NCBI RefSeq assembly: GCF_007826885.1
Contig: NZ_ML675578.1
Location: 124,001-188,000 of the forward strand
Source: Candidatus Nitrosocosmicus arcticus
GTDB taxonomy: Archaea; Thermoproteota; Nitrososphaeria; Nitrososphaerales; Nitrososphaeraceae
Length of the DNA stretch: 64,000 nucleotides
Direction: 5' to 3'
Of this stretch, positions 6,145 to 63,862 are shown piece by piece; positions within the stretch are counted from its first letter, which is position 1, and each line of letters begins with the position of its first letter. Made by a program: the position numbers and the translations under genes. The notes under the pieces are model-generated. The model was given only the letters and a program-made list of their open reading frames with translations. It searched no databases and was not told where the DNA came from.

Positions 6145-8052
6145 ATGGAGACAGACCCTCTCAATCGTCCTGTATTAACTTATGCTCATCATAACTTCAT
6201 AGTACTAGATGAAGATACTGACGCAGCAAATGCTGTAAAGGTAATGCATGAAAAAAAAGCCGAAACAATAGTTGTAAAGAACAAGAGCGAAGAACATGTA
6301 GGGATTATCACCGATAGTGATATTTTAGACAAGATTGTCATGAGAGGTGAGGATTCAGACGAAGTCTCCATTAAAACAATAATGTCATCTCCCCTTATTA
6401 CTATCTCAGCAAAGGCAAATGTAAGACAAGCCTTAGAACTGATGAGACTCAATCTGATTAAAAGAATTCCGGTAACTGATAATGTGCATATTCTGGGAAT
6501 TGTAACCCAGGTGGGTTTGGCAAATGCCATTAGAACATCTGTCCTAGAAAGGCAATTTAGGAGCTATAGAGTTGTAATTAGGGAAAGATATAAACCAATT
6601 TGGGGAAATCTAGGATTCATCCTTCAATTTTCGGGCTTGCTTTTCATTGCCCCAGCCATTTTAGCTACCGCATTAGGTGAGGTCGTTTCTGCAACCGGAA
6701 TTTTCCTTGGGATTACAAGTATGTCCGTAACTGGATTCATCTTGAATGCCTATGGAGAAAAGACCCCTATGAACCTCAGACAGGCGTCAATTCTGATGGT
6801 CTTTAGTTTTGTCTTGCTAAGTTTTTTTGGAAGCATCCCATACATGTATGTAAATCCGTTCGGTGAAGGGGTAGATCCGCTAACTCTCGTAGTAAACAGT
6901 TTCTTTGAGAGTGCGTCAGGTTTTACAACAACTGGATTATCAATGTTGGCCCATCCCGAGGATCTCCCAAAGAGTTTTGATTTTTATCGATCATTTACCC
7001 AATGGATAGGTGGCTTAAGTTTCGTATACTTAGTAATCACATTCTTCTATCCTGAAAGAAAGTTGGCCCATATGAAAGGTATGCTAGGAGGGGGTAGCCT
7101 TAGGTTAAAGCAATTGATACTTACGATAGGAGTTATTTTTAGTGTATACACTATTGCCCTGTCAGTTTTATTGTATATTTCAGGAAACCACGAAATTATT
7201 TATAATATCTCCTTAATATTTAGCGCTGTAACGGGCGGCGGTTTTGTTCCTTCTTCTACATCCTTAGTATCCGAAAATTTTCTTGAATTATTTGTGATAA
7301 TGACAGGCATGATAATCTCCGCGCTTCCATTTGCTTTTCATTATGCCGTATTTAGTAAGGAAATGCATACTACAAAAATGCGTCCCGAAGTAATTGTATT
7401 TTTCGGAATTATGTTTACTGCTATTCCCATTTTTACTTATCTTCTTTTCTTATCTGATCCCTCTACAAACATAATGGTCGGGATGTTTCACACTGTTAGC
7501 GCTGCAACAACTACAGGGTTTCAATTCTTAGACATTACACTTTTATCTGATGATGGTAAGATCTTGTTAATAATTTTGATGCTAATTGGAGGAACTGCGT
7601 TCTCCACAGCAGGAGGAATTAAGGTTGGAAGAATATTACAAATAGTTCAAAAAATGACTAAAAAGAAATTTTCTGCAGACGTTACAACCAGATCTATTTC
7701 CTCAGCTTCTTCGAGGTATAATAACGCATATGAGCCCTGGAAAAAGAATTCTGAAATTCAGAAGGAAGAAAAGACGTTTAATGAATCTATCCTTGTTATT
7801 TTTCTGTTTATATTTATGTCTTTTTTTACGGGTGCGCTTTTATCAATCTTTACAGAAAAGAATTTTTTAGATTCGCTATTTGAATCAGTTTCAGCTTTAA
7901 CCACGACAGGATTAACGGCTGGAATTACAAACATTAACGCTGATCTGCTTTCAAAAGTATTACTCATTATTAACATGATTATAGGCAGGTTTGAAATCAT
8001 TGCAGTAATTTACCTATTTTTAGAAATTTCAAAAATAAAAAAGAAGCATTAA
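6145..8052 (+). CDS. CBS-domain/TrkH fusion: potassium uptake transporter membrane subunit
   Basis: Residues 1-130 form a CBS pair (GIITDSDIL in the first, LGIVTQVGLANA in the second), normally an adenine-nucleotide sensor. From about residue 150 to the end the protein is a TrkH/KtrB-type K+ channel subunit. It has the four pore loops: SGFTTTGL (261-265), TGGGF (363-367), ATTTGF (455-459) and LTTTGL (586-590). Each retains the selectivity-filter glycine. No trkA gene lies next to it, so the CBS pair may supply regulation in cis; that is inference. Start ATG at 6145. Confidence 0.9.
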   Translation: METDPLNRPVLTYAHHNFIVLDEDTDAANAVKVMHEKKAETIVVKNKSEEHVGIITDSDILDKIVMRGEDSDEVSIKTIMSSPLITISAKANVRQALELMRLNLIKRIPVTDNVHILGIVTQVGLANAIRTSVLERQFRSYRVVIRERYKPIWGNLGFILQFSGLLFIAPAILATALGEVVSATGIFLGITSMSVTGFILNAYGEKTPMNLRQASILMVFSFVLLSFFGSIPYMYVNPFGEGVDPLTLVVNSFFESASGFTTTGLSMLAHPEDLPKSFDFYRSFTQWIGGLSFVYLVITFFYPERKLAHMKGMLGGGSLRLKQLILTIGVIFSVYTIALSVLLYISGNHEIIYNISLIFSAVTGGGFVPSSTSLVSENFLELFVIMTGMIISALPFAFHYAVFSKEMHTTKMRPEVIVFFGIMFTAIPIFTYLLFLSDPSTNIMVGMFHTVSAATTTGFQFLDITLLSDDGKILLIILMLIGGTAFSTAGGIKVGRILQIVQKMTKKKFSADVTTRSISSASSRYNNAYEPWKKNSEIQKEEKTFNESILVIFLFIFMSFFTGALLSIFTEKNFLDSLFESVSALTTTGLTAGITNINADLLSKVLLIINMIIGRFEIIAVIYLFLEISKIKKKH

Positions 8053-61838: not shown

Positions 61839-61860
61839 ATGCCAAAAAAGAACTGTAAAG

Positions 61861-61943
61861 CGGGGGTCGCCTAGCCTGGTAGGGCGTGGGATTGCTAATC
61901 CCATGTTCGCAAGAACTCGTGGGTTCGAATCCCACTCCCCGCG
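61861..61943 (+). tRNA. tRNA-Ser (GCU)
   Basis: Acceptor stem GCGGGGG with UCCCCGC (one G-U) and discriminator G. The anticodon stem UGGGA/UCCCA surrounds loop UUGCUAA, anticodon GCU. A long variable arm (GUUC-GCAA-GAAC) and T-arm GUGGG/CCCAC with UUCGAAU confirm serine identity. No intron and no encoded CCA. It directly precedes an integrase gene. Confidence 0.96.
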
Positions 61944-62008
61944 CTTAAAACAGGGAATCTAACGTTATCGTTATATATTTTGACGAATACCATACCTTTA
62001 TTCAATAA

Positions 62009-63364
62009 ATGTCTGATGTCATCGACCAAATAACTCAAGGATTATCCAAGCCTTACTTTCAGAAAATATTAAGAAATCTAAAAAATAATCATAAGGAAAA
62101 TGCAGATACGATATGTAAGTATATTCTGGTCGAACAAGCAGAGATTAATATTAAAAATAGTACCAAGGAAGGAAAAATAAAGGTCCTAATTTGGCTTTCT
62201 AACTATTTTAACAATAAGAAAAGATTTCAAAACATGACCAAAGAAGATATCTTAGCATATCTTGACAGCATAAGAAAACCCCAGGGTCAAGGTAATGGTT
62301 GGATAAATTCTTACAATGGTCGACAGATGATTTTTCTAAAATTTTTTAAATGGTTATACAACCCGCATGAACCAGATTCTACAAAAAGGATAACTCCTTC
62401 CTGCATGAGCGGTATTAAAAGACTGTCTAAAAGAGAAAAAACTTCTTATCGTCCTTCAGATATTTGGGACGAAAGAGATATGTCAGTTTTCTTAAAATAT
62501 TGTCCCAATAAAAGAGACAGGTGTTACTACGCTATGGCGTTTGATATGTCGGCCAGGCCCCATGAAATCCTTTCTTTACGTATTCGGGACATAAAGGTTT
62601 GTCTTACTGATAATAATAAGCAATATGTGGAAGTAAGAATTCCTGATGGGAAAACGGGTTCTCGTATAGCTGTGCTGATAGATTCCATCCCATATCTAAA
62701 AGAATGGCTTTTAGAACACCCTCATTCTTCCAATTCAGACGCATATATTTTCATATTAAAAAATGGGGCCAGACTGACATACGAGGGGTTAGCAAGCAGA
62801 CGGACGTATTATGAAAAAATCTATTATCCATCTCTTCTAAGTATTAAATCGAGAGTTCAGGTGGAAGAACCAGATAAGGCAATAATTAGAAATCTTATTA
62901 CTAAAAAATGGAACTTATATGTACTAAGACACTCGGCCTTAACTAAAAAGAGTCAGTTTCTTACAGAAGCCAATCTGAGATCACATGCTGGCTGGACGGC
63001 TTCAAGTAAAATGCCGCAGATATATATACACTTAAGTGGGGAATCGAACAATGCCATTCTTGAAAAACATGGTTTAATTTCTAAAGAAGTTAGAGAAAAA
63101 GAAAACATCTTAAACGGAAAAGAATGTCCGAATTGTCAAGAAATTAACAAGCATTTTAGCAAATTTTGTATGAAATGCAGAATGGTTCTTACTTACGATT
63201 CCTACAGGGAAACAAGAGACGATGAAAAGAATAAAATTAAGAAATTGGAGGATGATGCGAAGCAAAAAGATGAGATATTAAGTACACTTCTAGAAAAAGT
63301 TTCGCTTTTGGAAAAGGAAATTAGAGAAGAAAGACAGATAAGATTGTCGTTTGTCCCATTCTGA
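62009..63364 (+). CDS. Tyrosine recombinase/integrase with C-terminal zinc ribbon and coiled coil
   Basis: The catalytic residues can be placed: R183 in SARPHEILSLR, a hairpin Lys in DGKTGSR, R307 in YVLRHS, H326 in SHAGW, and nucleophile Y339 in PQIYIHLSG. The residue three before R307 is Tyr rather than the usual His. The N-terminal 140 residues are the core-binding domain. After the catalytic domain come CPNCQ and CMKC (373-390, a zinc ribbon) and a coiled coil to the end. Probable role: integration and excision at the adjacent tRNA. Confidence 0.88.
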   Translation: MSDVIDQITQGLSKPYFQKILRNLKNNHKENADTICKYILVEQAEINIKNSTKEGKIKVLIWLSNYFNNKKRFQNMTKEDILAYLDSIRKPQGQGNGWINSYNGRQMIFLKFFKWLYNPHEPDSTKRITPSCMSGIKRLSKREKTSYRPSDIWDERDMSVFLKYCPNKRDRCYYAMAFDMSARPHEILSLRIRDIKVCLTDNNKQYVEVRIPDGKTGSRIAVLIDSIPYLKEWLLEHPHSSNSDAYIFILKNGARLTYEGLASRRTYYEKIYYPSLLSIKSRVQVEEPDKAIIRNLITKKWNLYVLRHSALTKKSQFLTEANLRSHAGWTASSKMPQIYIHLSGESNNAILEKHGLISKEVREKENILNGKECPNCQEINKHFSKFCMKCRMVLTYDSYRETRDDEKNKIKKLEDDAKQKDEILSTLLEKVSLLEKEIREERQIRLSFVPF

Positions 63365-63766: not shown

Positions 63767-63800
63767 CATTCCTTTAAAGGGATATCCCTTTAAAGGAATG
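63767..63800. repeat. Perfect 34-bp palindrome (putative operator)
   Basis: The first half is CATTCCTTTAAAGGGAT and the second half is its exact reverse complement, with no spacer. Each arm itself holds the smaller palindrome CCTTTAAAGG. It ends 62 bp before the start of a ribbon-helix-helix gene. It may be an operator bound by that protein, a recombination site, or an intrinsic hairpin. Confidence 0.75.
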
Positions 63801-63862
63801 TTATTTCTGAAAAAACGCTACCGAAATTAATATAAACGATCTTTAGATATATATAGTTAATA

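Follow-up and report, generated by a model that had tools for sequence, protein, structure and literature searches.

A perfect 34-bp palindrome ahead of a ribbon-helix-helix gene, a candidate autoregulatory operator in a tRNA-Ser-integrated element of Candidatus Nitrosocosmicus arcticus

The window analysed here (the whole 64,000-nt stretch of Candidatus Nitrosocosmicus arcticus DNA) was found to contain a perfect 34-bp palindrome, CATTCCTTTAAAGGGATATCCCTTTAAAGGAATG, at 63767-63800. It is proposed, with a probability of about 0.6, that this palindrome serves as the autoregulatory operator of a ribbon-helix-helix (RHH) repressor heading the replication operon of an element integrated at tRNA-Ser. 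The observations behind this proposal are the palindrome, its nesting, its position, the gene order, the family of the RHH protein and the enrichment of palindromes at related RHH promoters; what we infer is that the RHH protein binds and represses, that the operon is co-transcribed and that the neighbouring ATPase acts in replication. Counted against it are the distance of ~80 bp, a sequence which is not conserved and a relative (L038) with only an imperfect 12-bp palindrome. The features concerned are as follows.

61860..61944, plus strand: tRNA-Ser(GCT), the 3' end of which (from 61924) is the likely attachment site
62009..63364, plus strand: tyrosine integrase of the element (phrog_1 integrase, E 2e-17; Phage_integrase, 5e-5, under the curated cutoff)
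63767..63800, no strand: perfect 34-bp palindrome, proposed operator; two abutting 16-bp boxes, each centred on CTTTAAAG
63771..63780, no strand: left half-site, nested 10-bp palindrome CCTTTAAAGG
63779..63788, no strand: central 10-bp palindrome GGGATATCCC
63787..63796, no strand: right half-site, nested 10-bp palindrome CCTTTAAAGG
63821..63837, plus strand: putative BRE/TATA region CCGAAATTAATATAAAC, ~31 bp upstream of the RHH start, predicted from sequence only
63863..64009, plus strand: RHH regulator gene, 48 aa, TTG start; its last 9 bases lie past the window end (64000)

The two arms of 17 bases are 100% complementary with a spacer of 0, which bears out the initial annotation of an exact palindrome ahead of an RHH gene, the start of that gene (63863) being 62-96 bp downstream. 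The accompanying statement that such a sequence is very unlikely by chance also held, with perfect 34-bp palindromes expected at the given composition 3.5e-5 times per 121 kb and ~8e-4 times per 2.64-Mb genome. No longer perfect palindrome was found in the 121 kb around the site, where the runner-up measures 18 bp, and it outranked all others in 1.27 Mb of related archaeal DNA (longest other perfect palindrome, 24 bp). The nested palindromes first noted in each arm are present as described, and the chance of a 10-bp palindrome inside a random 17-bp arm is ~0.012. The two CCTTTAAAGG dyads are 16 bp apart with the GGGATATCCC dyad midway between them, giving dyads at 0, 8 and 16 bp. Alternatively, the palindrome can be read as the abutting 16-bp boxes ATTCCTTTAAAGGGAT and ATCCCTTTAAAGGAAT, which are identical at 14/16 positions.

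No second copy of the palindrome was found in its own genome at up to 3 mismatches, and no exact or near copy in 70 family genomes, 400 class genomes or viral contigs. Half-sites of the CCTTTAAAGG type with 16-bp spacing were absent, allowing 1 mismatch, from the 400 genomes searched. The search for further half-sites in the element, suggested with the initial annotation, returned none even at 1 mismatch, and the idea of a master operator for the element is unsupported, as the element contains no further copy of the palindrome or of its half-site.

The surroundings are those of a tRNA-integrated mobile element: an integrase gene begins 65 bp past tRNA-Ser(GCT), and the 3' end of this tRNA (61924-61946) recurs at the far end as an exact 23-bp repeat at extended coordinate 85105. 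A second repeat of it, 18 bp long, lies at 100966, and the palindrome is placed inside the integrated element on account of these repeats, which possibly reflect two elements integrated in tandem. It is located 1.8 kb from the tRNA attachment site and 400 bp past the integrase stop codon, in the gene order tRNA-Ser, integrase, palindrome, RHH gene, 86-aa ORF, 713-aa ATPase. The interval between the integrase and RHH genes holds ORFs of 21-32 aa only and no sizeable divergent gene, and the RHH operon is therefore the only plausible target of the palindrome on either strand. Related integrases were identified at the same tRNA in the genus (L188, L191, L192 and, more weakly, L189); at these loci no long palindrome was found and the replication modules differ. 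In several relatives the same tRNA-Ser is occupied by different elements. The element also encodes, beyond the window, a 177-aa HTH protein (L002:6283-6816; L002 coordinates are window coordinates minus 61000) with a weak resemblance to Cbp1, a CRISPR repeat-binding protein (NF040595, 1.8e-5, far under the cutoff), and homologs of this protein recur beside ATPase relatives (L042, L043, L048, L061).

Assignment of the 48-aa protein to the RHH (MetJ/Arc/CopG) type is based on its homologs and predicted secondary structure. Approximately 70 homologs were found in 25/70 family genomes, sharing the motif GxSLPxxxxxKIDxxRGDVPRSRYIxRxLE, and some of these match RHH_3 (2.6e-4), RHH_1 (0.02) or phrog_4738, a "transcriptional repressor" (4e-7), while the 48-aa protein itself has weak matches to two unnamed phrogs only. 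An AF2 monomer of the 46 residues within the window (mean pLDDT 74) has helices at 19-27 and 32-45 and a non-helical N-terminus without a strand. A Foldseek search of this model against the PDB gave no match, and a search of the RHH profile against PDB sequences gave nothing credible. Among the fetched loci, RHH genes of the family commonly precede small, often Zn-ribbon-like ORFs, and several precede large proteins including PrimPol/D5 replication proteins; at L150 and L154 it is RHH or Zn-ribbon genes that head PrimPol/D5 replication genes.

The RHH gene heads the operon and is co-directional with the ATPase gene, which would be the gene order of CopG-Rep systems if the ATPase is a replication protein. 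It comes first, followed beyond the window by the 86-aa ORF (L002:3278-3538) and the 713-aa P-loop ATPase (L002:3531-5672), and RHH-(small ORFs)-ATPase synteny was seen again in L038. Homologs of the ATPase were detected in 22/70 family genomes and, at a stricter cutoff, in 22/400 class genomes; none was found in viral contigs, plasmids or phages, and Pfam, NCBIfam and the PDB yielded nothing credible. An AF2 model of an ATPase relative (three sequences) reached a pLDDT of 40, and therefore no fold is claimed. A replication role for the ATPase is likely in view of a PolB-fused homolog and PrimPol neighbours: the 1629-aa protein of L043 (G023:C445, 24-4913) combines an N-terminal ATPase homolog with a C-terminal DNA polymerase B (PF00136, 1.3e-23), and in L084 another homolog follows a PrimPol gene (PF09250, 1.7e-14) within an operon. 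As relatives of the ATPase are found in operons headed by RHH, AbrB or PrimPol genes and in this PolB fusion, the operon described here is probably the replication operon of the element. In L040/L199 (Ca. Nitrosopolaris wilkensis) the ATPase gene consists of two overlapping frames (251 and 248 aa) behind an AbrB-like gene and is likely a decayed copy.

The upstream regions of related RHH genes were found to be enriched in palindromes of other sequences. A palindrome centred at -60 to -40 occurs in 11/55 non-redundant RHH genes compared with 2.7 +/- 1.5 in dinucleotide shuffles, of which 0/100 reached 11. Compared with control genes (111 upstream regions of ordinary genes), the proportions are 11/58 and 7/111 (Fisher p = 0.013, a single-bin value with seven bins tested). 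Examples are TGTAGTAGTACTACTACA (L124), AAACTGAACTAGTTCAGTTT (L136) and TTGGAACTAGTTCCAA (L169). Around 80% of the RHH relatives have no palindrome in the enriched bin. Several of the relatives' palindromes are of a TAGT/ACTA type, which the 34-bp palindrome does not resemble in sequence, and its centre, ~80 bp upstream of the RHH start, is ~35 bp further out than the family position. That sequences differ among relatives is as expected if every regulator has its own operator. The closest syntenic RHH-(small ORFs)-ATPase relative, L038 (= L198), has an imperfect 12-bp palindrome only, AGTAGTGCTACT, at about -49 to -38. The outcome for conserved symmetry is mixed: palindromes recur at RHH promoters, the exact sequence is unique, and L038/L198 has only its imperfect 12-bp palindrome. 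The RHH operator first proposed is favoured indirectly by position, nested symmetry and the enrichment upstream of 58 related RHH genes, and is weakened by the unconserved sequence and the ~35-bp departure from the family position. Two other perfect palindromes were noted: one of 22 bp, ATTATTTATTATAATAAATAAT, which overlaps the start of a further RHH gene from this family (L166, 707-728), and one of 24 bp, CTGCAGTTACTGCAGTAACTGCAG, which again contains nested palindromes and lies near a weak RHH match (L109, 490-513).

The palindrome ends ~25 bp upstream of the putative BRE/TATA, whose spacing from the RHH start would be as expected for a leaderless archaeal message; another TATA-like run lies at 63843-63855. 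In the operator model, RHH dimers would occupy the dyads, either one per CCTTTAAAGG box or up to three at 8-bp spacing, and would then spread or loop to the BRE/TATA. Bound RHH protein would block TBP/TFB, so that both the RHH protein and the ATPase would be limited, as with copy-control repressors of the CopG type. The 8-bp dyad spacing is shared with the met-box operators of MetJ, a bacterial RHH protein, in which palindromic 8-bp boxes have dyads 8 bp apart and are bound by one dimer per box. MetJ differs in being bacterial, chromosomal and metabolite-responsive.

By analogy, the nearest functional precedent is the orf56/orf904 replication operon of pRN1 from Sulfolobus islandicus, the first gene of which encodes a CopG-type RHH protein for which binding to its own promoter and control of copy number have been proposed (PMC3869888, PMC4234260). 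In both cases an archaeal mobile element carries a tiny RHH gene followed, in the same direction, by the gene for a large replication protein, a probable one in the present element. However, the large protein of pRN1 is a PrimPol-helicase and that found here an unclassified P-loop ATPase, an 86-aa ORF lies in between, the element is tRNA-integrated, and a perfect 34-bp palindrome forms the putative site, at some distance upstream of the TATA box. A circuit of palindrome, RHH protein and ATPase of the CopG-Rep or orf56-orf904 type is considered the most likely arrangement. CopG-Rep systems have an inverted repeat in the RHH promoter to which the RHH protein binds, and an inverted repeat is present here as a candidate site of this kind. 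In CopG-Rep systems the operator is near or overlaps the BRE/TATA, which the -40 to -60 palindromes of the relatives would fit; since the present palindrome lies ~25 bp upstream of the TATA region, it is classed as working like CopG-Rep and not as a strict member.

A more distal site has been reported for archaeal viruses. SvtR of SIRV1 has its high-affinity site ~80 nt upstream of the TATA/BRE, and for both SvtR and AvtR it is proposed that binding begins at a strong distal site and extends along the DNA in the direction of the BRE/TATA (PMC5569661). Like the protein described here, SvtR, AvtR and F55 are small RHH proteins; they bind repeated or inverted sites and repress their own promoters (PMC5569661), which is the behaviour proposed here, but the sites of SvtR and AvtR are imperfect inverted repeats and those of F55 tandem repeats, whereas a perfect nested palindrome is present here. 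Closer in taxonomy are the integrated elements of thaumarchaea, among the commonest shared genes of which the excerpted text of PMC6563490 places arCOG08805 (CopG/RHH) and arCOG08677 (Zn-ribbon). These resemble the present element in tRNA integration, archaeal group and small RHH genes, but in that excerpt no operators or palindromes are described for the RHH genes.

A possible but clearly less probable alternative is that the palindrome is an operator of the same operon bound by another protein, namely the 177-aa HTH protein, the ATPase or a host regulator. The departure from the RHH-family position would be accommodated in this way and an HTH protein is indeed encoded by the element. In addition, the related ATPase operons of L084 and L199 go with AbrB-like and not RHH regulators, and the regulator is therefore exchangeable. 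In favour of the RHH protein, however, its own gene opens the operon and palindromes are found upstream of related RHH genes. A host regulator in particular is disfavoured because the half-site is found nowhere else in the element, nor in the 400 genomes (1 mismatch, 16-bp spacing).

In L084 (G226:C4), from another family of the same order, a doubled palindrome, TTAGATATCTAA-N11-TTAGATATCTAA, is situated at 7776-7810 between the AbrB-like gene and the divergent PrimPol-ATPase operon, and is unique within 31 genomes of its genus. It is a suggestive parallel to the 34-bp palindrome with a different type of regulator. Doubled nested palindromes were rare (four in the 1.2 Mb scanned, one in a coding region), and two of the four stand ahead of replication operons of the 713-aa ATPase family, an association which is suggestive only, since the sample was chosen around such operons. 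The doubled palindrome of L043 falls inside a coding region and for that reason is not counted as a parallel. It is a speculative and rather improbable extension that nested doubled palindromes are recurring control sites of thaumarchaeal integrative-element replication operons, which unrelated small regulators, an RHH protein here and an AbrB-like one in L084, would use interchangeably, with the same site also marking the start of replication for an undescribed family of replication ATPases.

Improbable too is a role in the replication origin, in which the palindrome would be bound or would form a cruciform and the 713-aa ATPase would recognise it once the mobile element is excised. In favour are the AT-rich surroundings of the palindrome and its place just ahead of the probable replication operon, the folding of its strand into a hairpin of 15 bp (-16.7 kcal/mol in the DNA model, z -4.9) and the essential stem-loop of pRN1, though that one lies downstream of the rep gene (PMC4234260). 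Against this, an iteron-type origin is not indicated, with no iterons or tandem repeats near the palindrome and repeat families that are all two-copy only, and most related ATPases have no comparable palindrome nearby. Moreover, a simple hairpin needs no nested 10-bp palindromes, so that their presence in the arms (chance ~0.012) is unexplained by a hairpin alone. The replication or recombination site considered in the initial annotation is an unsupported and less likely reading, nothing pointing to it given the lack of repeats and an attachment site 1.8 kb off.

The same hairpin was rated terminator-like in a terminator scan (15 pairs, 4-nt loop, tail TTATTTCT), yet a terminator or RNA hairpin for the integrase transcript is highly unlikely. 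The palindrome lies 400 bp past the integrase stop codon, nested palindromes are superfluous for a hairpin, an Rfam scan matched the tRNA alone and nothing for the palindrome, and archaeal termination depends chiefly on T-runs. Least probable is a part in excision as an accessory site of the Xis or integrase type. The integrase in the same element and the likely attachment site 1.8 kb away might point to it, but such sites are normally close to the attachment site, and the related integrases at the same tRNA (L188, L189, L191, L192) lack this palindrome.

The palindrome is a well-formed regulatory site of an ordinary kind, unusually symmetric, in a poorly studied group of elements. If the RHH operator reading is correct, it would supply ammonia-oxidising archaea, for which genetic tools are scarce, with a defined operator-repressor pair from one of their mobile elements, and the 34-bp site and 48-aa protein would be easily testable and could seed regulated vectors. 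It would also link the widespread small RHH genes of Nitrososphaeraceae to replication operons and indicate an uncatalogued family of replication-associated ATPases.
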